NCBI GenBank assembly: GCA_019636815.1
Contig: JAHBWT010000002.1
Coordinates: 1-64,000, forward strand
DNA length: 64,000 nt
Source of the DNA: Nitrospira sp.
GTDB lineage: Bacteria; Nitrospirota; Nitrospiria; Nitrospirales; Nitrospiraceae
Direction of reading: 5' to 3'
Part shown: piece after piece, positions 7,082 to 21,111 of the stretch
How positions within the stretch are numbered: position 1 is the first letter of the stretch
Layout of the letters: each line of letters starts with the position of its first letter
The notes under the pieces: model-generated
The model's database searches: none
The model's input: the letters and a program-made list of their open reading frames with translations, nothing else
Told to the model about the DNA's origin: nothing
Made by a program: the position numbers and the translations under genes

Positions 7082-7555
7082 ATGATCGAGCGCATAGCCA
7101 TCGTCCTAATCGTACTCTATCAGGCCGACGTCGCCGTGGCCGAGATAGGGTTCGACGAACGGTACGAGCGGGACTACAACATTTTTAACCCGGTTCAGCA
7201 GTATCCGCCGGATAATCCGCTCAATCCTGCAAATGCCTATCATCCGGACAGCACCTTCAATCCCGTCAACCGGTACGATCCCGGTAATCCCGCAAATCCA
7301 GTGAACAAGTATAGCCCGAACAACCCGTTCAATCCGGTGAATCAGTATCATCCTGACAATCCACTGAACCCGGCGAACAAATATAACCCTGACGTGCCGT
7401 TTGAGCCGTTGGATAAAAGGGGGAGCCGGGGACAAAAACATGGTAATGGCCGAAACGAGGCAGGCGAGCGTCTCTACCTTCCGGTGTCGGCGGCGTGGAG
7501 CACGTACTGCAGTTCGCCTTGGAGGCCAAGCTGGTCCGCCCAACTCCAAAGATAG
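7082..7555 (+). CDS. exported protein with tandem 12-residue Tyr/Pro/Asn repeats
   Basis: This 157-residue protein has a short signal peptide (about 1-20, ending VAVA). Residues about 34-110 consist of six successive 12-residue repeats of the form Y-x-P-D/G/N-N-P-L/F/A-N-P-V/A-N-x, for example YHPDNPLNPANK. GGGAGG precedes the ATG. The last 27 codons overlap the minus-strand nucleotidyltransferase gene and read like antisense sequence (many Trp, Ser, Arg), so the natural C-terminus may have been lost or frameshifted after GSRGQKHG. The repeat looks like an extended, proline-rich surface or periplasmic spacer. No function is assigned. Confidence 0.6.
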   Translation: MIERIAIVLIVLYQADVAVAEIGFDERYERDYNIFNPVQQYPPDNPLNPANAYHPDSTFNPVNRYDPGNPANPVNKYSPNNPFNPVNQYHPDNPLNPANKYNPDVPFEPLDKRGSRGQKHGNGRNEAGERLYLPVSAAWSTYCSSPWRPSWSAQLQR

Positions 7556-8046
7556 TCAAGATCGACGTGTAAGTGAGGATTCTTGATGATGCCCAGCATA
7601 TCCTCAAAATCACGAGGACGACCAGCCTTGAGCTTAAGGAGAATCAGGTCCTCCGGACTGCAGACATACAGGGAGACGCCGAGAAGCTGCAGCGCCTGTC
7701 TGCGAGCAAGTGCCGATTGGGACTGGCGATCGTTCGCGAAGAGAAGGTCCAGAGGAATCGTAGGGTAAGAACGATGAGTCAGACGCATCACGACATCCCT
7801 GGCCATCGGATTGTGCTCCAGCCAGGTCTCGTCGATCCGAAACTCGTGAGCACGCAACGCATCGATCAGTTCGGTGCGAGCGGGCATGTCTGCGAGTACG
7901 AGCAGGTCAATATCGTTGGTGGCGCGAAGACGGCCCCACGCATTGACGGCCAGCGCGCCGACGAGGCAATACGGGCTTGATGGTGGAAGTGCTGTGACAA
8001 TGGCGTGAAGGTAATCGGCGAACGAGTCGTGGCTAGCGGGCGACAT
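7474..8046 (-). CDS. nucleotidyltransferase (AbiEii/MNT-like), second gene of a two-gene module
   Basis: This is a 190-residue protein of the nucleotidyltransferase superfamily. The core motif is LVGALAVNAWGRLRATNDIDLLV (G30, then D45 and D47 as metal ligands). A later PEDLILLKLKAGRPRDFEDM segment is typical of the AbiEii-like toxin group, which add nucleotides to RNA or proteins. ATG 8046 is chosen because it sits 14 bases inside the preceding gene, giving translational coupling; the longer frame runs through that gene. Together with 8033-8308 it forms a likely toxin-antitoxin or defence pair beside the CRISPR locus. An internally deleted relative with the same 14-base overlap is found at 16990-17437. 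Confidence 0.75.
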   Translation of the reverse strand: MSPASHDSFADYLHAIVTALPPSSPYCLVGALAVNAWGRLRATNDIDLLVLADMPARTELIDALRAHEFRIDETWLEHNPMARDVVMRLTHRSYPTIPLDLLFANDRQSQSALARRQALQLLGVSLYVCSPEDLILLKLKAGRPRDFEDMLGIIKNPHLHVDLDYLWSWADQLGLQGELQYVLHAADTGR

Positions 8047-8308
8047 CGGCCTCGCGCGACATGGCGGCGGGTCGGTCGATCGGTGAAATGCGGCGGAAGG
8101 GGTTGTCGAAAGGAGGAGGGCACGGGAGGGGCGACAGTCCCAGTGCCTGGGCACAAGCCTTCGACCATCGTTGCATGGCATCGGAGAGACGGCAGCACTC
8201 CACGATGCCTTGTTCGGGTGTAGGCGCGTAGTCAGCCGCACTGATCTGTGCCGCGCTCACGTGGAGCTTGCGTAGCCAGATGGGCGGATTGGCAGGGTCG
8301 AAGCTCAT
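8033..8308 (-). CDS. small partner protein of the nucleotidyltransferase module
   Basis: This 91-residue protein is encoded immediately upstream of, and overlapping by 14 bases, the nucleotidyltransferase. It contains a central helical part (PEQGIVECCRLSDAMQRW) and a proline-rich tail. Its position, size and overlap match the small partner that precedes the second nucleotidyltransferase in this window (16990-17199), although sequence similarity between the two partners is weak by eye. An antitoxin or accessory role is inferred from context only. Confidence 0.5.
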   Translation of the reverse strand: MSFDPANPPIWLRKLHVSAAQISAADYAPTPEQGIVECCRLSDAMQRWSKACAQALGLSPLPCPPPFDNPFRRISPIDRPAAMSREADVAR

Positions 8309-8739: not shown

Positions 8740-8854
8740 AGCAGCATTTGCCCGTTGGTTCAAGCAAGCAATCGGTAATGAGTCCTATCCGTATCAAGTT
8801 CGTTTCGCGTGCCTGCTCGAAGGGTTTAAAGACGAAGATAGAAGGGCGCGATGA
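8729..8854 (+). pseudogene. N-terminal stump of a second cas3 (41 codons)
   Basis: This short frame encodes 41 residues that look like the start of a type I-G Cas3: AAFARWFKQAIGNESYPYQ matches the pattern FxxFFxxATG...PYxxQ seen at the start of the intact Cas3 next door (CEFFKAATGGFTPYDWQLQ). The fragment ends where the Walker A region should begin. Its TGA overlaps the ATG of the intact cas3 (ATGA), so translation could be coupled. Base composition here is lower in GC than in the following genes. I read it as the remnant of a replaced cas3, possibly now serving as a leader peptide. Confidence 0.6.
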
Positions 8855-11625
8855 ATTATTGTGAGTTCTTCAAGGCCGCGACTGGCGGGTTCACACCCTA
8901 CGACTGGCAGCTTCAGGTCGCCGTCGAGGGCTTGCCGGACGTACTCCCGGTTCCAACCGGGCTTGGGAAGACCGAGGTCGTACTCGCATGGGCGTGGCGT
9001 CGACTCGTAGCTGGCGAGCCGGAGCCGCTTCATCTTGTCTATTGCCTGCCGATGCGTAGCCTCGTCACGCAAACCGTGCAGCGTCTAAGGGGCTACTTCG
9101 AGGCGCTCAGAGCCACGAAGCCCGAGATCGACGTTGGCGTCCACCAGCTCATGGGCGGCGCGATCGAGGAGGAGTGGGTGGGCCAGCCTGACAAGCCATG
9201 GGTGCTCGTCGGTACGCAGGACCAGCTCCTCTCGCGTGCGCTGAATCGCGGCTATGCCATGAGCCGCTTCGAGTGGCCGGTCCACTTTGGCCTTCTCAAC
9301 AACGACTGCCGGTGGCTGATCGATGAAGTTCAGCTCATGGGGCCGGGTCTGTGGACGACGTCGCAGCTCGACTGGATGCGCAGAAAGCGGTTCCCGGTGT
9401 TGAAGCCCTGCTTGACGACGTGGATGAGCGCCACGGTCGGCACATCCTTTCTCAGCACTACCGATCGGAAGTGCGAAGAGATGAGCGAATCATCGAAGGA
9501 GCAAGCTGCGTTCGAAGAGAAGCTGAAGTCTTCACTCGACGACGACAAGGGTCTCTCCTGGTGGCGCAAGGCCAAGCGGTCCGTCGCGTGGTGGACAGGA
9601 AACTCCGAGACACAAGGATCCACAAGAAAGAAGACAAAGTCCACGCAGGGCGCGATCACACCCGAGGCCATCGCCCAGGCTGTGATGCAGGAGCATATGG
9701 CAGGCGAGCTCTCGCTCGTCATCTGCAACACGGTTGACTGGGCGCGCGCTGTATTCCGCGACTTGTCGGTGGAGCACCGGGTTCTCCTCACCTCGCGATT
9801 TCGGCATGAAGACCGCGCCAAACACGAGCAACGTCTCCTCGGTTTCGATGCCAACCGAAAGGCGGGCAAGTTGCCGGAGAACGACCCGGGTCTTATCTGT
9901 GTCAGCACGCAGGTCATCGAGGCGGGCGTGGACATCTCGGCGCATCGTCTGTGGTCCGAACTCGCGCCGTGGCCTTCGATGCTCCAGCGCCTGGGCCGTC
10001 TGAATCGAAAGGGAGACGATCAAGAGGCGCGTGCCTGGGTTTGGGAGACGCCAAAGGAGGGCGGGAACAAGAAGGCGGAGCGCATCGGACCGTACGAGGC
10101 CGCCGACATCGAGCGCACCAAGAAGCTCGTCGATACCTTTGCGCCGCTTTCCAGAGAGAAGGCGTTCTCGGAGGCCATCGCCAACCTGAACAAACAGTGC
10201 GAAAAGGATGTGCGCGAGGCGTTGCGGCCCAAGCCAAGCCCCCTACCGCGCGCACTCGATGTCCACGGCCTGTTTTCGACCGAGCGAGACGTCCACGGCG
10301 GGTTCACCGACGTCAGTGCGTTCGTTCGCGGTACCGACCCCGACGTCGATGTGACGGTGTTCTGGCGTGACTGGTCGGGCGACAGCCCCCCGCGTGGCGA
10401 GGACCTCGATGGACCCCTGCTGGAGCCAGCGAAGGAAGGCTGCCCCGTCTCCTTCATCCGTGTCCGGAAGATACTGGAAAGCAGCAAGGGCAAGGCGTGG
10501 TTGTGGGACGACGAGAACAACCGCTGGGAGCGCGTGAATCATTGGGACATCCGCCCCGGCATGCTCGTCATGCTGAAGCGCGACGTCGGCGGTTACGACG
10601 TGACCGAGGGTTGGACTGGCGACAGGTCGAACACCCTTGTCGAAGTACCGCGCGCCGGGCGTGGTGAGACCCTGCGAGACGATGACTGGACCGAGATTGG
10701 CTACTGGTCGAGGCTCGAAGACCACTTGAAGGACGCGCGAAGGGAGGCGGAGAGTCTGTGCACAGCGCTCTCGCTGACGGGGCAGACACGAGATGCTGTA
10801 GTGGAAGCCTCGGGGCTTCACGACATCGGCAAGGCGCATCCGCAGTGGCAGGCGGCGTTGCCCGATTGCTCAGGCATCCCCGACGCGGTACTCGCCAAGA
10901 CGCCTCGTGTACTCGGGGTTGATATCACCGCTCCCAGCGCTGTCGCAGGGGTGGAGGCACAAGTCCATCTGCTGAGGTCGAACGCGCTTCGGCTCTCAGA
11001 TGGGAATGGACACCGTGGTCTCGTGCGCCTGCGCTGGGCGCTCGACGGTACCAAGCTCAACGAAGCAGAGCGGGAGACTCTGAAACAACTTACTGGAGTA
11101 CGCTGGGCAGGCGATGTCCCGTTTCGTCCCCGCCTGCGCCACGAGGTCGCCTCGGCCCTCGCGATGTGGCGGAAGTATCGTGATGGGGGTGCCAGTTACC
11201 CGGCTCTGGCGGTCTATCTGGCTGCCACACACCACGGAAAGGCGCGGACCGTGCTGCGATCGACGCTCGGTGAAGGAGACGACGTCTTCGGCGTACGAAA
11301 CGAGCCGAGCACGCTGGTGATCGGCAATGACCAGTGGCCACTCGACTTCTCCATCGCGAAGGACGGCGCCCAGGGTCGCTGGGAAGGCAACGAATTCGTG
11401 CTGACCGGGTACGGCTGGACCGGCCTCGTCGCAGATCTCCTCGGACCTTGGCAGCCTGAGGAGAAGAGCGATGCCGGCGTCGTGCCGGAGACGGAGCCGC
11501 GCAATCTCGGCCCGTTCGCGTTGGCGTACCTAGAAGCGCTCGTGCGTGTAGCTGACTGGTGGGCAAGCGATCCAAAGCATGCAACGAACATTCTCAAGCC
11601 CAGCGAGGTGCGCAATGGTAGCTGA
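8851..11625 (+). CDS. cas3: CRISPR-associated helicase-nuclease Cas3 (type I-G, helicase then HD)
   Basis: This is a 924-residue interference nuclease-helicase recruited by Cascade to unwind and degrade target DNA. The SF2 helicase comes first: Walker A PTGLGKT at residues 35-41, the DExx-type box WLIDEVQLM near 157 and QRLGRLNRKGD (motif VI) near 380. The HD nuclease is at the C-terminus: GLHDIGKAHPQW near 655 and AATHHGKAR near 792. This order (helicase before HD) is characteristic of the I-U/I-G subtype. It overlaps csx17 by 11 bases. The sequence is clearly richer in GC than the flanks. The start ATG at 8851 overlaps the stop of the preceding stump. Confidence 0.93.
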   Translation: MNYCEFFKAATGGFTPYDWQLQVAVEGLPDVLPVPTGLGKTEVVLAWAWRRLVAGEPEPLHLVYCLPMRSLVTQTVQRLRGYFEALRATKPEIDVGVHQLMGGAIEEEWVGQPDKPWVLVGTQDQLLSRALNRGYAMSRFEWPVHFGLLNNDCRWLIDEVQLMGPGLWTTSQLDWMRRKRFPVLKPCLTTWMSATVGTSFLSTTDRKCEEMSESSKEQAAFEEKLKSSLDDDKGLSWWRKAKRSVAWWTGNSETQGSTRKKTKSTQGAITPEAIAQAVMQEHMAGELSLVICNTVDWARAVFRDLSVEHRVLLTSRFRHEDRAKHEQRLLGFDANRKAGKLPENDPGLICVSTQVIEAGVDISAHRLWSELAPWPSMLQRLGRLNRKGDDQEARAWVWETPKEGGNKKAERIGPYEAADIERTKKLVDTFAPLSREKAFSEAIANLNKQCEKDVREALRPKPSPLPRALDVHGLFSTERDVHGGFTDVSAFVRGTDPDVDVTVFWRDWSGDSPPRGEDLDGPLLEPAKEGCPVSFIRVRKILESSKGKAWLWDDENNRWERVNHWDIRPGMLVMLKRDVGGYDVTEGWTGDRSNTLVEVPRAGRGETLRDDDWTEIGYWSRLEDHLKDARREAESLCTALSLTGQTRDAVVEASGLHDIGKAHPQWQAALPDCSGIPDAVLAKTPRVLGVDITAPSAVAGVEAQVHLLRSNALRLSDGNGHRGLVRLRWALDGTKLNEAERETLKQLTGVRWAGDVPFRPRLRHEVASALAMWRKYRDGGASYPALAVYLAATHHGKARTVLRSTLGEGDDVFGVRNEPSTLVIGNDQWPLDFSIAKDGAQGRWEGNEFVLTGYGWTGLVADLLGPWQPEEKSDAGVVPETEPRNLGPFALAYLEALVRVADWWASDPKHATNILKPSEVRNGS

Positions 11626-13759
11626 GCTGCGTCTCCCGGTGCTGGCGCTACCTGGCCTCTCGCCCGACAGCCTTGGCAACTACCTCGCCTCGCTTGGCCT
11701 CTTGCGTGTGGTAAGTCGGAAGTGGCCGAGCACGCGCATCGCATGGCGCGACGAGGTGCTACAGGTGGTCGGCGGTCCTCCCACGCTGGATGAGCTGCTC
11801 GATGAGCTCGTGCAAGTAGCAAGTAAGCAAGCATGGAGCCCTTACGATCGGCGCTGGAAAGAAGATCAAAAGAAAGCGACCAACAAGCAGTCAGGCGACC
11901 CGCTCGCGCTCTGGCTCGCGCGAGCAGAGGAGCGCGAGCTTGAGATATTCGCCGCCCATGCCGTCCCGCATGCCCGGGTTAGCTACAACCCTCTTCTTGG
12001 TACTGGCGGTAACGCAGGCAAGCGCGCGTTCTCGGATGGCTGGAGTCGTGCGGCGAAAGTGCTGGCAAAACCTGGAAAAGAGTGCATTCGAGCGCATCTT
12101 CGCGATTTACTGTGCGGCAATGGTGTCGGTTGGCTCGTCGTCAAGGTTGACAACAAGCTGTTGAATAGCGGCAGCTGGTTTAGCGAATCGGGGGAACTCT
12201 ACAACAACGGTCAGTCGAAACCATCTCGCGTTCCTGGCCTTTCCCCTTGGGCAATGGTTCTCGCGTGCGAAGGCTTGGCGTTGTTTGCTGGTGCTGCTTC
12301 GCGTCGCCTCGGCGTTCGCGCCGGATCTGCAATCGGAGCGTTCCCCTTCATCACCCAGCCTGCGGCATCGGAGAACGCGGGCGAGGCCGGTCGCATTCTC
12401 GGCGAGGTCTGGACGCCACTGTGGAGCCGACTGATGACGCTGGCCGAGACGAGAATCCTGTTTTCGCGTGGCCGAGCCGAGCTACGCGGACGAGGCGCCG
12501 TAACGCCGGCTGCGTTTGCGACGGCTATCCGTAAGCGGGGCGTGGACGCCGGCATCAACGAGTTTCGGCGCTTCACGCTCGGCCGAACAACGAGCGCCAA
12601 CACGTTCGAGCCTCGCTTCGAGGCTCGATTCTCGCTCGATGCCGACGCTGTCGGGGCGAGCACCGCGATCTCGCTCACGCTCGAACGCGTCACCGCACTG
12701 ATCGAACAGCGCGGCTTTCCGCGCGATCGAAAAGTGGGCCAGCATTGGCGGTTCGAGGGACTTCGTGGTCCCATCGAGGCAGCGCTCCTCGACGTCGCCG
12801 CAGAGCCCAACCGCTCCGAAGCAGCCATCGCACTGCTCGACGTGGTCGCCGCCGCGCTGGATCGCATCGACCGCAATCGCAGCTTCCGTGAGGGCAAGGT
12901 CCGCTGGGAGCCGCTTCCTCTCGAATGGCTGCCTTCGCTGTTCGCAGACGAGCAACCCGGCGTCGAAGCGCGGCTCGCGCTATCGCTCGTGTCGGGGTTT
13001 CCTGATGCACTGCCATTCGCGGCGTTCCGCTTTGGCCTGGAGTGGACCAGAGACGGCAAATACGACTGGGCCACCAAGCCGCGTTGGTTCGAACATTCGA
13101 AGGTGGTCCCTGCACGCTGGGTGTGGGGACCGGGAGAACTTGCTCGTGTCCTTGGGGCGGTCCTGTGTCGACGCCTGTTCGACGGGGGCAAGTTGGACAC
13201 CACCAACACAACTCGCCCGCAAGGTCGCGCACCGCTTACCGCCAGGTTGGTGGATGTGGGTCGGTGGTTCGCTGGCGATCTGGATGAATCGCTCTTGGTG
13301 GTGTGGCTCTCGCGGCTCGCGCTCTTCGACTGGCGAACGATCCCGCAGGAAGCGCGTTCGCTCATCAGCGCGGAGACCACACCTCCGCGAGCTGATGGTG
13401 AGCTGGCTCTGCTGGGGCTCGTGCAGCCCTTCGTCGACCAGCGCCCCTTGGTCGTCCGAAACCTCTCGCCCAACGACCTTCTCTCTGACGAGACGGGCGC
13501 ACGCACGACGGAGGTGACGCGCTCGCTCGTCACGCTGATCCGTTCCTGGAACCTGGACGCCGCAATTCGACTTGCGAGCAGCCGGTACGCGATGGCTGGC
13601 GTGCGCCTCGCGTCCTTCGACGTGCCCTGGTGCGCCAGCGAACCGGACCGCCTCGTAGCGGCCCTGCTGTTCACCATTTCGGACCGCGATCGGGCGGTCC
13701 TCTTTCAACGCTGGCTTCGTCCTCGACGCCGGCAAACAGGAGGCGAAGCACATGTCTGA
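11615..13759 (+). CDS. csx17: type I-G Cascade large subunit Csx17 (Cas8g)
   Basis: This 714-residue protein is in the position and size range of Csx17, the large subunit of the I-G effector complex that recognises the PAM and target. The N-terminus LPGLSPDSLGNYLASLGLLRVVS is the typical opening of the family. Later segments include WSRAAKVL, WAMVLACEGLALFAGAASRRLG and FPFITQPAA. The ATG at 11615 overlaps the end of cas3 by 11 bases. The longer open frame begins at 11579, inside cas3, and is less likely. It overlaps csb1 by 8 bases. Codon use is strongly GC-rich: one 60-base sample at 12481 is 70 percent GC. Confidence 0.88.
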   Translation: MVAELRLPVLALPGLSPDSLGNYLASLGLLRVVSRKWPSTRIAWRDEVLQVVGGPPTLDELLDELVQVASKQAWSPYDRRWKEDQKKATNKQSGDPLALWLARAEERELEIFAAHAVPHARVSYNPLLGTGGNAGKRAFSDGWSRAAKVLAKPGKECIRAHLRDLLCGNGVGWLVVKVDNKLLNSGSWFSESGELYNNGQSKPSRVPGLSPWAMVLACEGLALFAGAASRRLGVRAGSAIGAFPFITQPAASENAGEAGRILGEVWTPLWSRLMTLAETRILFSRGRAELRGRGAVTPAAFATAIRKRGVDAGINEFRRFTLGRTTSANTFEPRFEARFSLDADAVGASTAISLTLERVTALIEQRGFPRDRKVGQHWRFEGLRGPIEAALLDVAAEPNRSEAAIALLDVVAAALDRIDRNRSFREGKVRWEPLPLEWLPSLFADEQPGVEARLALSLVSGFPDALPFAAFRFGLEWTRDGKYDWATKPRWFEHSKVVPARWVWGPGELARVLGAVLCRRLFDGGKLDTTNTTRPQGRAPLTARLVDVGRWFAGDLDESLLVVWLSRLALFDWRTIPQEARSLISAETTPPRADGELALLGLVQPFVDQRPLVVRNLSPNDLLSDETGARTTEVTRSLVTLIRSWNLDAAIRLASSRYAMAGVRLASFDVPWCASEPDRLVAALLFTISDRDRAVLFQRWLRPRRRQTGGEAHV

Positions 13760-14924
13760 AGCAGAGAAGAAGGAACTCACCCCTGCCGAGGTTCTGAAGG
13801 GCGAGTCCCCGCTCGTCCTGACGGCGACGCTTGAGCCGATCGTCGGCGATCGGTTTCAGCCGGCGGGATTCCCTGAGATCGGCCACGTCATCTACAAGGC
13901 GCCTCGGAAGGACGGTAGTATCGAGCATGTCTGCATCGTGGATAGCGCCGCGAGCATGGCCAATCACCTTGAGTCGGTCTGCCAGCGCGGCGCGCACGAC
14001 CTTGACCTCGTCGAGGAACTCGACGGCATGCCCTATATCCGCTGCGTCACGAACACGACGGAGGGCAAGGAGCCCACGAAGAACCGCGAGGTCGTCGTTA
14101 CGAGCCTCACCGAGGGCCACCGCATCGCGTCCTCGTACTTCATTGAAGGCGCTATCTTGCGCGGAGATGCTAAGGCAACGAAGGAGAACAATGACGGGAA
14201 CGACGAGCCGCTCACGCTCGAATGTGATCTCATCGACAAGTTTGGCATCGAGCTGCCCGGAAGCTCGAAAGCGCACCCACCGGCTGACAAGTGGTGGAGC
14301 GTCTTCAAGACCATTTTCGAGGTCGATCCGAACTCCCTCGTCCACGGCGTGCTCTTCCCACAGTGGCAGATCAAGATCTCGCGCGCGCTCACGGCGCATC
14401 TCGAGGCTTTCGGTGCCGGCCGCGTCGATCGCTCCGGTGTGAAGTTCGACCGGTTGGGAAAAACGACATCCGGTCAGCCGATCTTCGCGGTCGATGACAC
14501 AACCGCCGAGTCTATCCGCGCGACGTTCATCCTGGATGTGAGCCTCATCCGATCGTTTGGCCGCAAGAAGAAAGAGGATGGAAAAGAAACGCAGCTCGGT
14601 CTTTTCGAGAAGCAGCAGGAGTTCCTTGTCGCACTTGCGCTGTGGAAGGTCGAGAAACTCCTCCAGTCGCCGTTCCGCTTCAGGTCTGGCTGCCACCTCC
14701 GGCGTACGACGCTCAAGAGCGGCAAACAGGACGTGGAGATCAAGGTCGACATCCAGCAGGTAATTCGCGACGCTGCATTCCGAAGCGAAAAAACCGACGG
14801 CGCTCCTCCGATCATCACTGACGTGTTCTGGCCGCGCGAGGAGCTGTATCGGAAAGGCAAGGCCGACGAGGACAGTCAGACGAGCAATGACGACCCGAAC
14901 GAGGAGCAGGACGAGAACACGTGA
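13752..14924 (+). CDS. csb1: type I-G Cascade backbone subunit Csb1 (Cas7, GSU0053 family)
   Basis: This is a 390-residue Cas7-family protein that would polymerise along the crRNA. The opening SPLVLTATLEPIVGDRFQPAGFPEIGH matches the Csb1 pattern (L-x-x-x-L-x-P-x-x-G-x-x-x-P-x-x-F/Y). Other family-like segments are VDSAASMANHLE and LTEGHRIASSYF near the middle, and FRSGCHLRRT near the C-terminus. The tail is acidic and likely disordered. It overlaps csx17 by 8 and csb2 by 4 bases, so the block is tightly co-translated. Confidence 0.9.
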   Translation: MSEAEKKELTPAEVLKGESPLVLTATLEPIVGDRFQPAGFPEIGHVIYKAPRKDGSIEHVCIVDSAASMANHLESVCQRGAHDLDLVEELDGMPYIRCVTNTTEGKEPTKNREVVVTSLTEGHRIASSYFIEGAILRGDAKATKENNDGNDEPLTLECDLIDKFGIELPGSSKAHPPADKWWSVFKTIFEVDPNSLVHGVLFPQWQIKISRALTAHLEAFGAGRVDRSGVKFDRLGKTTSGQPIFAVDDTTAESIRATFILDVSLIRSFGRKKKEDGKETQLGLFEKQQEFLVALALWKVEKLLQSPFRFRSGCHLRRTTLKSGKQDVEIKVDIQQVIRDAAFRSEKTDGAPPIITDVFWPREELYRKGKADEDSQTSNDDPNEEQDENT

Positions 14925-16456
14925 TGCGAATCGTCCTCCGACAAGAGTTCCCACTCGGACGCTTCCACGCCACGCCGTGGCGCGTGAATCCATTCGACGA
15001 CCCGCACGGCGAGTGGCCCCCGAGCCCGTGGCGCCTGGTTCGTGCGGTGACTGCACGCTGGTACCAGTGGGCGCGGGAAGTGGAGCAGGCGCCGGACCTC
15101 GCGGAGCTCGAGCGTTTGCAGGCCGCGCTGTGCAAGAGCACGTATACGTTCCATCTCCCCGCGGACGCGCGAAAAGGCAGCCCGCTCAGGCAGTACCACC
15201 CGACTGAATTCGGATGGCGGCCAGCCGAGAAGAAGAAGGCAGGAACGCGCAGCTACGGCACGAGCCTCGTCCAGGACAACTACTGGTGCGTACCTCCAGA
15301 AGCGCCGGTCTGGTGGTTCATCGAAAGTGATTCCTGGACGCTGGAGCTCGTCAGGGTGCTCGAACAGTGCCTCGCCCGCATGGGCTACTTCGGACGAGCA
15401 GAGACGCTCACGCGGATTCGCGTTGCGACTCCGCAGGAAACCATTCCCGCCTCCAACTGTACGCTCGTCGAGAAGCGCACAGAGGGTGCGGTTCCTGTCT
15501 TGATACCACTGGAGCATGCCATGCGCATCGACATCGAACGAACGACGGACGATCCCGAGACCGTGAAGCGAACCGTGCCTCTCGGAGCGGGTGTTCTCTA
15601 CGCAGTTCGGCCATCGCGCACCGTGGCCCGTGAGCGCAAACGCGTGCCTGCGCATCGGCCCGACTGCCATCTGATGCAGTTCGCTCTTGGTTGGAACGTC
15701 GCGCCGGATTTTTGCGCGATCGTGCGGCTCACGTCCCGGTTTCGAGGCGCTGTGCTCCACGAGCTTCTGCGGCTCAAGACCGGAGATGCTTCGACGACTT
15801 GGACGCGCGTCGGTCGAGAGGTGCGCGAATCGATTGCGGATATGATCGGCAAGGACGCGAACAGCAAGCCGCTCAAGGGACACCGCCACACGGAGTTTCT
15901 GGCTTGGTGTGAGGACCGTCAGCCGACGCGCCTCGTTGTCTGGAGGGGCTTGCGTGCGTTCGATGCTGACGAGCAGGAAGCGATCCTCCTGGCCGCGTCT
16001 CGTGACATTTCTTGGGCCGCCGCTGGCTCGGACGTGGATGAGTGGAAGGTGCGCCTCGTTCCTCTGGATCGAGATGTTCCTGCGCCGCCAGGCTTCAACG
16101 GTCAAGCTTCAGTCGTCTGGGAGTCTGTTACTCCGTACGTGCCACCGCGTCATCACCTCCGAGGAGGCAAGGAGCGAGAAGGGGAGTTGATGGTCGAACA
16201 GATCAGCCGGGAGCTTCAGCGGCGCGGGATCTCGGTGCAGGTTGAGGTTAAGAGCGTAGGGCTCCCCACCTGGGTATCGGTGCACGTTCCCCGGCGGGAG
16301 GCGAACAAGCGCGCGTTCATCGGTGACCGCCGAGGGCAGATGATCCGGTTGCGGTTCGCGGCACCGGTGACCGGACCCGTCCGCTTGGGTCATTCGAGCA
16401 GCTTCGGCCTGGGCTTGTTCCGGCCGGTCCTGGAACATAGCCCTGCCTCGATCTGA
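14921..16456 (+). CDS. csb2: type I-G Csb2 (Cas5-Cas6 fusion, GSU0054 family)
   Basis: This 511-residue protein combines Cas5 and Cas6 functions in type I-G systems: capping the 5' end of the crRNA and processing pre-crRNA. The N-terminus RQEFPLGRFHATPWRVNPFDD and the segment WPPSPWRLVRAVTARWYQW are typical of the Csb2 family. The C-terminus has the glycine-rich RAMP-type ending LGHSSSFGLGLFRP. A GTG at 14921 overlaps the csb1 stop (GTGA); the following ATG at 14924 is an equally good start. Its stop overlaps the start of the csb2-like fragment by one base (TGATG). GC-rich like cas3 to csb1. Confidence 0.88.
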   Translation: MMRIVLRQEFPLGRFHATPWRVNPFDDPHGEWPPSPWRLVRAVTARWYQWAREVEQAPDLAELERLQAALCKSTYTFHLPADARKGSPLRQYHPTEFGWRPAEKKKAGTRSYGTSLVQDNYWCVPPEAPVWWFIESDSWTLELVRVLEQCLARMGYFGRAETLTRIRVATPQETIPASNCTLVEKRTEGAVPVLIPLEHAMRIDIERTTDDPETVKRTVPLGAGVLYAVRPSRTVARERKRVPAHRPDCHLMQFALGWNVAPDFCAIVRLTSRFRGAVLHELLRLKTGDASTTWTRVGREVRESIADMIGKDANSKPLKGHRHTEFLAWCEDRQPTRLVVWRGLRAFDADEQEAILLAASRDISWAAAGSDVDEWKVRLVPLDRDVPAPPGFNGQASVVWESVTPYVPPRHHLRGGKEREGELMVEQISRELQRRGISVQVEVKSVGLPTWVSVHVPRREANKRAFIGDRRGQMIRLRFAAPVTGPVRLGHSSSFGLGLFRPVLEHSPASI

Positions 16457-16989: not shown

Positions 16990-17199
16990 ATGGATATTCG
17001 CCGGATCGAGGTTATGGATGAGACGATGGCTGAGGTGTTGCGCCGAAAGACGCCGGCCGAACGTCTCGCGATCGGGTTTGGATTATGGCGATCGGCGCGC
17101 AAGTTGCTGTGGGGACAGTTGGCCTCGTTGCATCCGGAGTGGGATGCGCAACGGCTGGCTCAGGAGGTTGCGCGGAGGATTTCGCATGGAACTGTATGA
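16990..17199 (+). CDS. small partner protein of a nucleotidyltransferase module
   Basis: This is a 69-residue helical protein. RRKTPAERLAIGFGLWRSAR and HPEWDAQRLAQEVARRISHG are the recognisable segments; I recall such proteins commonly encoded directly before MNT-type nucleotidyltransferases. GGGAGG precedes ATG 16990 and fixes the start. It overlaps the downstream gene by 14 bases, the same overlap as in the module at 7474-8308. With its partner deleted (next entry), the antitoxin-like role inferred from context may now be idle. Confidence 0.6.
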   Translation: MDIRRIEVMDETMAEVLRRKTPAERLAIGFGLWRSARKLLWGQLASLHPEWDAQRLAQEVARRISHGTV

Positions 17200-17437
17200 C
17201 TTGTTGGCTCAAGTCGTGGAAACCTTCGAACGGCTCCGCATTCCTTATCTCGTGACCGGCTCAGTCGCCTCCATGGCGTACGGCGAGCCGCGGTTGACCA
17301 ACGACATTGATATGGTGGCCGGGATTCGGGAGATCGACATCCCTGGTCTGGTGGCCGCTATTGCAGGATGGGCAGATCGCTTGGGGCTGCGCGACATTTG
17401 GGACATGATCCAACGGCGCTTGGAAAAATCGTCGTAG
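17186..17437 (+). pseudogene. nucleotidyltransferase with a large internal deletion
   Basis: The 83-residue frame starts like a full MNT nucleotidyltransferase: PYLVTGSVASMAYGEPRLTNDIDMV contains the G-S and D-x-D motif. At about residue 59 it jumps into a typical family C-terminus (GWADRLGLRDIWDMIQRRL). Compared with the intact paralogue at 7474-8046, where DIDLLV and WADQLGL are about 120 residues apart, some 105 residues are missing. The third catalytic acidic residue and the body of the fold lie in the missing part. The deletion keeps frame, but the product is very unlikely to be an active enzyme. Confidence 0.75.
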
Positions 17438-17493: not shown

Positions 17494-19194
17494 ATGGAGA
17501 CTGAATCATCAATGCCATCCACGGGGAGCGAAGTGCCGCTGCTCCCCGCACGGATGGTGAACGAATTTGCCTATTGTCCCCGGTTGGCCTACTTCGAGTG
17601 GGTGGACGGGGAGTTTGCCGACAACGCGGACACCGCCGAGGGGCGTTTTCACCATCGGCGTGTGGACCAAGCACCGGCGAGGAAAGCGCGGACGACTGAT
17701 GAGAAGGAATCAGGAGAGCGTACGATTCATCAACGTTCGGTCTGGTTGTCGTCGGAGCGGCTTGGCGTAACGGCCAAGATCGATCTGGTGGAGGTTGAAG
17801 GGAACGTCGTCGTCCCGGTGGATTATAAACGCGGCAAGCGTCCGCATACGGCGCAAGGGGCCTGGGAGCCGGAACGAGTTCAGCTGTGTGTCCAGGGTTT
17901 ATTATTAAAGGAGCAAGGCTATACATGCGACCGCGGGGTGCTGTACTTCGTAGGGTCTCGAGAACGAGTTGAGGTGCTTTTTGACGATGAATTGACGGCC
18001 CGCACGATCGAGTTGGTCGAGGGGATGCGGATGGTCACGCAGGCAGCCTTGGCACCGCCGCCGTTGGTGGAGAGCCCCAAGTGTCCACGCTGTTCGCTCG
18101 TAGGCCTCTGTTTGCCGGATGAAGTGGGGTGGCTGCGGACTCCACGTGAAGGAGAGGAGCCCGCTCTCCGTAAACTTGTACCAACCAATGACGATGCGCT
18201 CCCGCTTCACGTGCAGACGCCAGGCGCAAAATTGGCGAAAGACGGGGACTGTCTCAAGGTCAAGGATCGCGATGAGGTAATCGGGGAAGCTCGCTTGGTC
18301 GAAACTTCGCAGGTGGTGCTCTATGGTGCCGTCCAGGTCAGCACACAGGTCGTGCAGGAACTCTGTAAACGGGGTATTCCGCTGGTGTACTGCTCCAGCG
18401 GCGGGTGGTTCTACGGGATGACGACCGGTTTGCTCCACAAGCACGTCGAGCTTCGTCGACGACAATATGCCGTGGCGGCCGATGCGGAACGGTGTTTGGT
18501 TCTGGCTCGGCGGTTTGTGCAGGCGAAAATTTCCAACAGTCGAACGTTCCTGCGGCGCAATCATCACGCCGCTCCGGAAACTGTGATTCAGGACTTGAAG
18601 CGTGATCATGTGCAGGCCGGGGAGGCGGGCTCCTTGGCATCGTTGTTGGGCATCGAAGGAACGGCGGCACGCCGGTACTTTTCGGAATTCTCGGGCATGC
18701 TGAAGGAGGCCGAGCCTGGCGCTCGATTCGATTTCGATGGACGAAATCGTCGCCCGCCGCGCGATCCGGTCAACGCTATGTTGTCGCTGCTCTATTCGAT
18801 GCTCGCACGTGAGTGGACGGTTACGTTACAGACTGTGGGCCTCGATCCCTATCTGGGGTTTTATCATCAGCCGCGTTATGGACGGCCGGCTTTGGCGCTG
18901 GACATGATGGAGGAATTCCGCCCACTCATTGCCGATTCCGCGGTATTGACGGCCATCAACAACGGAGAGATTCACGTCAATGATTGGATCGAGCGCATGG
19001 GGTCGGTGACCTTGACACCCGAGGGGCGCCGCCGCTTGATTGAAACGTATGAACGGCGGATGAGTCAGGAAATCACCCATCCGGTATTCGGCTATCAAAT
19101 CAGCTACCGCCGGGTCCTGGAAGTGCAAGCGCGATTACTAGGGCGGTATTTGCTTGGGGAGATTCCCGAGTTCCCGGCCTTCACGACACGATGA
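17494..19194 (+). CDS. cas4-cas1: Cas4-Cas1 fusion, adaptation integrase
   Basis: This is a 566-residue fusion typical of type I-G. Residues about 1-215 are Cas4: FAYCPRLAYFEW supplies the first cluster cysteine, VVPVDYKRGK is the RecB-like nuclease motif, and CPRCSLVGLC supplies the last cysteines of the 4Fe-4S cluster. Residues about 225-566 are Cas1, with LYGAVQVSTQVVQ and the metal ligands Glu (LLGIEGTAARRYF), His (GFYHQPRYG) and Asp (LALDMMEEFRP) all present. Cas4 trims and selects PAM-containing prespacers and Cas1 integrates them. AAGGGGG-type Shine-Dalgarno sequence precedes the ATG. Composition is like the genome flanks, not like cas3-csb2. Confidence 0.95.
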   Translation: METESSMPSTGSEVPLLPARMVNEFAYCPRLAYFEWVDGEFADNADTAEGRFHHRRVDQAPARKARTTDEKESGERTIHQRSVWLSSERLGVTAKIDLVEVEGNVVVPVDYKRGKRPHTAQGAWEPERVQLCVQGLLLKEQGYTCDRGVLYFVGSRERVEVLFDDELTARTIELVEGMRMVTQAALAPPPLVESPKCPRCSLVGLCLPDEVGWLRTPREGEEPALRKLVPTNDDALPLHVQTPGAKLAKDGDCLKVKDRDEVIGEARLVETSQVVLYGAVQVSTQVVQELCKRGIPLVYCSSGGWFYGMTTGLLHKHVELRRRQYAVAADAERCLVLARRFVQAKISNSRTFLRRNHHAAPETVIQDLKRDHVQAGEAGSLASLLGIEGTAARRYFSEFSGMLKEAEPGARFDFDGRNRRPPRDPVNAMLSLLYSMLAREWTVTLQTVGLDPYLGFYHQPRYGRPALALDMMEEFRPLIADSAVLTAINNGEIHVNDWIERMGSVTLTPEGRRRLIETYERRMSQEITHPVFGYQISYRRVLEVQARLLGRYLLGEIPEFPAFTTR

Positions 19195-19197
19195 CCG

Positions 19198-19488
19198 ATG
19201 CGCCGCCACTATCTCGTTACATACGATATTGCCGATGCAAAGCGCCTGAGGCGCGTCTTCAAGACGATGAAAGGGTTCGGCGTGCATTTGCAGTTTTCCG
19301 TATTCCAATGCGATCTTCCGGACATCGATCTTGTGCAGATGAGGGCAGCCTTGACGGAGATCATTCATCAGGAGGAAGATCAGGTGCTGATCATTGATCT
19401 CGGTCCGACTGAGAGCCACCCCATTAAGCGGATCGAATCTCTCGGTCTAAAGGCGGAATGGGAGGAGCGCCGCTCGCGAGTGGTTTGA
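19198..19488 (+). CDS. cas2: CRISPR-associated endoribonuclease-like Cas2
   Basis: This is a 96-residue Cas2, the dimeric adaptor of the Cas1-Cas2 integrase. The N-terminal strand HYLVTYDIAD has the conserved acidic residue, followed by FKTMKGFGVHLQFSVFQCDL and the strand VLIIDLG. It starts three bases after the cas4-cas1 stop, so the two are co-translated. Length is normal for the family. The CRISPR leader begins directly downstream. Confidence 0.95.
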   Translation: MRRHYLVTYDIADAKRLRRVFKTMKGFGVHLQFSVFQCDLPDIDLVQMRAALTEIIHQEEDQVLIIDLGPTESHPIKRIESLGLKAEWEERRSRVV

Positions 19489-19700
19489 GTATTGCCGCTA
19501 TCCTACGCGAGCGGTCCGATGATGGATGAAGGCCGGGCAGCACTCGCTGTATGGAATGAAGACCAACATACAGTGGTATATAAAAACTGATCATAAAAGG
19601 AGGTGAGAGAGAAACGTGCAACGATCTGTCTGCGGAAGAAGACAAAGCGCTCGCAGCATGCTCCAGAACAGCTTGCTTAACGGCCAGTTGGCCAGGAGCT
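19489..19700 (+). promoter_or_regulatory. CRISPR leader
   Basis: The 212 bases between cas2 and the first repeat form the leader. It contains an AT-rich stretch (TATATAAAA near 19579) that could be the array promoter. At 19596-19606 lies AAAGGAGGTGA, a full match to the 16S rRNA anti-Shine-Dalgarno complement. This is followed at 19616 by a GTG that opens a 28-codon frame (MQRSVCGRRQ...) whose TGA uses the first two bases of repeat 1. The leader side is assigned from the adjacent adaptation genes and from the repeat's ATTGAAGC 3' end. Confidence 0.7.
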
Positions 19701-21111
19701 GATTCCACAGCAGAAATGCTGTGGCCCCATTGAAGCTCGACCGCCGTCGAATTCGTCATCTTCCGGTCATCCGGATTCCACAGCAGAAATGCTGTGGCCC
19801 CATTGAAGCTGTGGCCACTGCCCCCATATGTTCAGCGTTATTGAAGATTCCACAGCAGAAATGCTGTGGCCCCATTGAAGCAGGAATTTGACGACCTCGC
19901 TCTCTCGTTCGCGCCAGATTCCACAGCAGAAATGCTGTGGCCCCATTGAAGCAGCAGGTATGCCCTCTCTGCATCATACAAACACGAAGATTCCACAGCA
20001 GAAATGCTGTGGCCCCATTGAAGCTAAGTCCTGTGCGTCTGCCTATTCCGCCACATCCCGATTCCACAGCAGAAATGCTGTGGCCCCATTGAAGCCCGGT
20101 TAGTTGAGGCGGGTAAGGTGTTGGGAATACGTGATTCCACAGCAGAAATGCTGTGGCCCCATTGAAGCAGCGAGCGTTAGCGTTGAGCCATTGGCTCGCG
20201 CTGTGATTCCACAGCAGAAATGCTGTGGCCCCATTGAAGCAAGGTGGCGGCGGCGGAAATTAATGACGTGCTCATGGATTCCACAGCAGAAATGCTGTGG
20301 CCCCATTGAAGCATCCTGAGTGAGACTGGAGAATACTTCAACTTCTTCCGAAGATTCCACAGCAGAAATGCTGTGGCCCCATTGAAGCAGCGAACTGTTC
20401 AGGCGTGAGGTTGAAGACTTGCTGGATTCCACAGCAGAAATGCTGTGGCCCCATTGAAGCAGCTGGCTCGTCTCAGTGATGGTCCGGCCCAAGCTCGATT
20501 CCACAGCAGAAATGCTGTGGCCCCATTGAAGCGCAAGAGCCGCGTAGCGCAGGTATGACGGAGGGTGTGATTCCACAGCAGAAATGCTGTGGCCCCATTG
20601 AAGCGTTTCATTCGCGTGTCTTAAGAATGCTGCTTGGCGGGATTCCACAGCAGAAATGCTGTGGCCCCATTGAAGCGTTCCGGGCGGCACGGGAACATCC
20701 GCAAGCCGAATGATTCCACAGCAGAAATGCTGTGGCCCCATTGAAGCAGTAATAGCTCAGGATTGGCTTGAGCAAGGGCTTGTTGATTCCACAGCAGAAA
20801 TGCTGTGGCCCCATTGAAGCAGCCAATACTTACTTCTCTTGAATTCATAGGGACTCTGATTCCACAGCAGAAATGCTGTGGCCCCATTGAAGCGGCTTGT
20901 CCTGCTCCTCGTCCCAGCGCAACTCTACGGATTCCACAGCAGAAATGCTGTGGCCCCATTGAAGCGACGGTGAACATAGTGGCGGTCCTTTCTGCTTAGG
21001 CCGATTCCACAGCAGAAATGCTGTGGCCCCATTGAAGCTTTGAGCTTGAGCAACATTTCAGGGTTGGCTTGAGCCGATTCCACAGCAGAAATGCTGTGGC
21101 CCCATTGAAGC
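19701..21111 (+). CRISPR. CRISPR array, 20 repeats of 36 bp and 19 spacers
   Basis: The repeat starts GATTCCACAG and ends ATTGAAGC. It contains an 8-bp stem CCACAGCA/TGCTGTGG around a GAAA tetraloop. Twenty copies start at 19701, 19774, 19846, 19917, 19989, 20060, 20133, 20205, 20277, 20353, 20425, 20497, 20569, 20641, 20712, 20785, 20858, 20930, 21003 and 21076. All look identical, including the last. Spacers are 35-37 bases, with one of 40 (20313-20352). The ending resembles the ATTGAAAC ending of many type I repeats, which sets the + orientation. Spacers 15 and 19 share a near-identical 18-base core. Confidence 0.98.

Follow-up and report, generated by a model that had tools for sequence, protein, structure and literature searches.

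Two spacers of a type I-G CRISPR array in a Nitrospira draft genome are best read as samples of a single protein-coding site in two diverged forms, a reading supported by the way their sequences overlap and by the protein motif that they encode. As judged from sequence comparison, they most likely target a small membrane-protein gene located next to a lysis-enzyme gene and belonging to the phage protein family PHROG 1544. The array is located in a stretch of 64,000 nucleotides (the window) from a 4.0-Mb draft genome (G000, contig 56).

The genes upstream of the array encode the effector proteins Cas3g, Csx17, Csb1, and Csb2 and the adaptation proteins Cas2 and Cas4-Cas1, the latter as a fusion (Table 1). 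Each of these proteins scores above its curated NCBIfam cut-off, and therefore we assign the locus to type I-G (formerly I-U). The same set of genes, 36-nt repeats, and spacers of 35-40 nt characterize the type I-G system of Geobacter sulfurreducens, from which the present locus shows no substantial difference, with csb1 here being barely over its cut-off. The repeat, GATTCCACAGCAGAAATGCTGTGGCCCCATTGAAGC, is identical in all 20 copies. Spacer 1 should be the youngest, given that the leader presumably occupies the interval from cas2 to the first repeat.

Table 1. Features of the type I-G locus and selected spacers, in positions of the window
Feature	Position	Strand	Evidence or remark
cas3g (type I-G helicase/nuclease)	8851..11625	+	NCBIfam TIGR02621, 603.7 bits (cut-off 400)
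csx17 / cas8g	11579..13759	+	TIGR04113, 456.6 bits (cut-off 150)
csb1 / cas7g	13752..14924	+	TIGR02570, 39.3 bits, barely over cut-off 38
csb2 (cas5-cas6 fusion)	14921..16456	+	TIGR02165, 102 bits (cut-off 45)
cas4-cas1 fusion (adaptation)	17494..19194	+	NF049935, 813.4 bits (cut-off 560)
cas2	19201..19488	+	TIGR01573, 41.3 bits (cut-off 24.5)
Presumed leader	19489..19700	+	inferred from its place between cas2 and the first repeat
CRISPR array	19701..21111	+	20 identical 36-nt repeats, 19 spacers of 35-40 nt
Spacer 10	20389..20424	+	possible third match to the PHROG 1544 motif (QQVFNLTPEQFA), weak
Spacer 15	20748..20784	+	minus strand reads QALAQANPELL(L), fits the PHROG 1544 motif
Spacer 19	21039..21075	+	minus strand reads AQANPEMLLKLK; same motif and strand, 10-nt shift

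Two further features of the locus were observed. Nucleotidyltransferase-like stretches were recognized by eye in the reading frames at 17018-17437 and 7474-8241 (YLVTGSVASMAYGEPRLTNDIDMV; YCLVGALAVNAWGRLRATNDIDLLV), one of which sits between csb2 and cas4-cas1. In addition, a hairpin in the repeat (window positions 19701-19736) is kept among the repeats of related I-G arrays (L174-L193) via paired changes on both sides, for example CCACAGCA/TGCTGTGG, CCACGGCA/TGCCGTGG, and CCGCGGCA/TGCCGCGG.

Spacers 15 (AGTAATAGCTCAGGATTGGCTTGAGCAAGGGCTTGTT) and 19 (TTTGAGCTTGAGCAACATTTCAGGGTTGGCTTGAGCC) share a core, TCAGGATTGGCTTGAGC at 20757 and TCAGGGTTGGCTTGAGC at 21058, in which 16 of 17 nucleotides match. 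The original prediction located this core and its ten-base shift correctly and translated the minus strands accurately as QALAQANPELL and AQANPEMLLKLK. It was also right that a single base differs within the core, but the core length is 17 rather than 18 nt. When the shift of ten is applied to the complete spacers, the overlap extends to 27 nt with 21 matches and six mismatches, which occupy positions 3, 3, 3, 1, 3, and 3 of the minus-frame codons. If the reading frame is taken from the protein family, the binomial probability that at least five of six mismatches fall at codon position 3 is 13/729 (p = 0.018). The differences had been described as exclusively synonymous-like; this description suits the five third-position changes, but the sole first-position change converts Leu to Met. 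The codon-phased differences and the fit to the PHROG 1544 motif both agree with the proposal that one protein-coding site was sampled in two diverged versions from related phages.

Database searches for the protospacers themselves were negative. No exact protospacer of either spacer was found in IMG/VR, in INPHARED, or in 236 genomes from the same order, and blastn of the two spacers against INPHARED phages gave chance matches alone (E of at least 2). Among these, the regions surrounding the Vibrio and Sinorhizobium phage matches were inspected, and nothing there pointed to a shared target. IMG/VR likewise yielded no protospacer with the peptide patterns AQANPE[LIM]L, ALAQANPE, QALAQANPEL, AQANPEMLLK, AQANPE, and QANPExLLK, and 20 GTDB contigs in which one scan located AQANPExLL were set aside as unrelated or spurious frames with no recognizable phage target. 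Patterns with up to three mismatches in the 236 genomes produced no homologue in the matches examined; those in G084 and G233 belong to a periplasmic-binding-like cellular protein and were rejected as targets. When plasmids were queried with the whole array, the part containing spacer 5 was the only one represented among the matches listed. A concatenated spacer peptide returned nothing by tblastn or in a PHROGs search. None of 606 spacers came within eight mismatches of the retrieved phage DNA, and the closest relative of the target has 22/37 and 27/37 bases in common with the spacers.

The target family was instead approached through the peptide obtained by merging the two spacers, QALAQANPE[LM]LLKLK (15 residues). 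Scanning IMG/VR with the degenerate pattern NPE[LMIF]LLKLK retrieved 11 contigs, two of which (L101 and L096) carry the pattern in a clear small membrane protein. The best match, contig L101 (AALAEANPEILLKLK), reads AALAEANPEILLKLKEAD, in which 12 of the 15 residues of the merged peptide are identical and three are conservative replacements; its residues ALAEA match even though they lie outside the search pattern. The L101 and L096 proteins are both members of phrog_1544 (E values of 6e-20 and 2e-25). As judged by alignment and profile, this family has a conserved motif, xALxxANPExLLKLKxAE, that follows the N-terminal part of the protein, and the spacer peptides fit it. We take the minus-strand frame to be right because of this fit.

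The assignment was also evaluated using a profile built on 26 relatives that had been gathered by full-length homology rather than by motif. When every spacer was translated in six frames and scanned with this profile, spacer 19 scored 23.2, a value reached by 10 of 249,938 random windows, and spacer 15 scored 14.6 in a consistent register (704 of 249,938); the registers of the two spacers agree with their overlap. These counts are on the strict side in that the random pool includes contigs fetched for the motif, and they carry no correction for how many families might have been selected, PHROG 1544 having been chosen for its motif. Independent support for this family comes from the codon-phased differences, the agreement in register, and the fact that the L101 match continues beyond the search pattern.

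PHROG 1544 has matches in 95 phage records, with Vibrio and Rhodoferax phages among the carriers of the gene. Its members are annotated as "TMhelix containing protein," "holin," or hypothetical, and the PHROGs resource lists the function of the family as unknown. A holin-like role, as named in one phage record, is putative. In most of the annotated phages examined, the gene immediately upstream encodes an endolysin, a lysozyme, or a peptidase M15, although there are exceptions, and from this location we infer that the PHROG 1544 gene may function as part of a lysis cassette. The protein has hydrophobic C-terminal helices and no Pfam match, and its AlphaFold model is poor (pLDDT 54). A representative is also present on a phage-like contig (G195:C367) of a genome from the window's own bacterial family, with a lysozyme-like reading frame upstream; the neighbors on this contig were named by eye. 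The motif ALxxANPExLLKLK is common to PHROG 1544 and the spacer target, whereas the target is seen through the spacers as 15 residues alone, and the usual place beside an endolysin gene is a property of the family.

Two explanations that would dispense with a shared PHROG 1544 target were considered. An overlap of spacers 15 and 19 by chance might be entertained given that their common core is only 17 nt. The best spacer-pair score in the array is 14, whereas the maximum in 200 Markov-simulated arrays was 13. Furthermore, a control paired spacers across arrays (606 spacers, 20 related arrays) and scored 168,285 such pairs in both orientations; not one reached the value of the spacer 15/19 pair. 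Therefore, the pair is not attributable to chance, and with its differences being codon-phased as well, we consider a fortuitous overlap very improbable. A less extreme but still improbable option is that the shared motif comes from another phage protein family, such that the match to PHROG 1544 reflects convergence on a helix-rich motif. NPE-type stretches indeed exist in the C-terminus of portal-like proteins (L004 and L068) and in a methyltransferase-like protein (L098). However, no such candidate matches both the ALA-A residues before NPE and the LLKLK residues after it, whereas L101 of PHROG 1544 does so across all 15 residues, and eight of the 10 contigs retrieved with the pattern NPExLLxLKxAE carry PHROG 1544. 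The portal-like C-termini were dropped for their poorer fit.

The original prediction had proposed looking for a shared protospacer-adjacent motif (PAM) at the two offsets. The PAM of type I-G systems is TTN (PMC9638904), and a study of MbCas4/1 reported GAA on the other strand, which corresponds to TTC (PMC10274657). At the spacer-15 offset, TTN is present in 20 of 34 relatives, compared with 6-10% as the background for the gene as a whole, counted by codon phase; the two T residues are complementary to the conserved Lys codon within LLKLK. Spacer 19, which is a real version of the site, has TTG at this offset. At the spacer-19 offset, TTN is found in only 8 of 34 relatives and depends on a Glu/Gln/Lys codon. 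Both offsets are thus TTN-compatible, and these data are compatible with PAM-guided capture at both offsets rather than proof of it.

We propose that the type I-G system took up spacers at two times, from two related but diverged phages that both would have carried the PHROG 1544 gene. Both spacers would derive from the same strand, ten bases apart, within the ALxxANPExLLKLK segment of this lysis-cassette gene, with Cas4-Cas1 presumably having picked the sites via TTN PAMs. Spacer 19 would have been acquired first, its greater age being judged only from how far it lies from the presumed leader next to cas2. Both spacers may have been needed because a spacer-15 crRNA would be mismatched at its positions 3, 6, 8, 9, 15, and 27 against the spacer-19 phage. 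Repeat sampling of one PHROG 1544 gene, whether independent or primed, is in our estimation quite probable.

Primed adaptation, which is a sub-case of such repeat sampling, is a possible but unlikely route to the second spacer. The older spacer 19 would have bound its diverged counterpart in a related phage imperfectly, and the machinery of interference and adaptation would have drawn the newer spacer from the immediate neighborhood of this counterpart, making the overlap a consequence of the first spacer rather than of independent sampling. Primed spacers in type I-F systems cluster near the priming protospacer (PMC4117759), and here the two spacers share a strand, with the newer one by position lying within 10 nt. 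The occurrence of overlapping or shifted pairs in 3 of 19 further related I-G arrays also favors priming. However, the literature examined holds no demonstration of priming for type I-G, and primed spacers spread far beyond 10 nt, such that the ten-base offset is not specifically predicted. Moreover, scoring mismatches in the first ten positions of spacer 19 would require the second phage.

The pairs in these three arrays (L183, L185, and L186, all from the same order) differ in their resemblance to that formed by spacers 15 and 19. Spacers 19 and 56 of L183 match at 19 of 20 overlapping bases and thus have one difference, as in the core described above. Unlike spacers 15 and 19, spacers 4 and 12 of L185 (on opposite strands) and the shifted spacers 13 and 15 of L186 are exact over their overlap, and therefore one phage could be the source of each pair. 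L186 (G100:C3:77500-83500) also contains a duplicated block of about seven spacers, with a second copy of spacers 11-14 and 16-17 appearing as spacers 18-21 and 23-24. A comparable case has been described for Desulfofustis, where spacers 01-103 and 02-11 correspond to one protospacer in a conserved phage gene (PMC10370329). There, as here, one host holds two spacers against one conserved site, but the Desulfofustis spacers are reverse complements of each other, whereas ours are diverged versions on the same strand with a 10-nt shift.

A broader possibility is that type I-G systems of the order repeatedly capture spacers at the conserved NPExLLKLK site of the lysis-cassette gene, because TTN PAMs would be provided there on the antisense strand by conserved Lys and Glu/Gln codons. 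This proposal, which we consider doubtful, would take in spacers 15 and 19, possibly spacer 10, and spacer 1 of L193 (G212:C25), an I-G array from a different genome of the order. Spacer 10 has a profile score of 12.7 in the spacer-15 register, a value that about 1% of random windows reach, and its plus frame is also open. The L193 spacer (FATRLQDLGVDY) scores 18.9 with the PHROG 1544 profile, at a position slightly downstream of the motif. In a set of 606 spacers, a score this high would be expected about 0.14 times.

Two other spacers of the array match host DNA. Spacer 14 (20677-20711) is identical over 35/35 positions to the host genome at G000:C1:35895-35929 on the minus strand (L169, 9896-9930), inside a 900-aa reading frame resembling an acyl-CoA synthetase/acyltransferase. 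The 5' flank of this self match is GCG, not TTN, and therefore the self target probably escapes cleavage. Spacer 5 (20025-20059) runs antisense to a gene for tRNA-Leu(UAA). The corresponding host gene (G000:C100:34496, L173) has a TTT PAM and mismatches the spacer at 6 of 35 positions, including positions 8 and 9, and phage tRNA-Leu genes also match this spacer in part.

Because overlapping pairs are present in several related I-G arrays, the spacer 15/19 pair is ordinary in kind. It most likely represents, as far as the sequences indicate, a tidy though unremarkable record of repeated attack by related phages, to which the present analysis adds a proposed gene. The array proved readable at the protein level, such that spacers without any database match gave a coding frame, a measure of divergence, and probably the target gene of the source phages. 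The site also illustrates concretely how conserved codons can provide PAMs at one position in phages that have diverged, a point relevant to why CRISPR systems target conserved genes.
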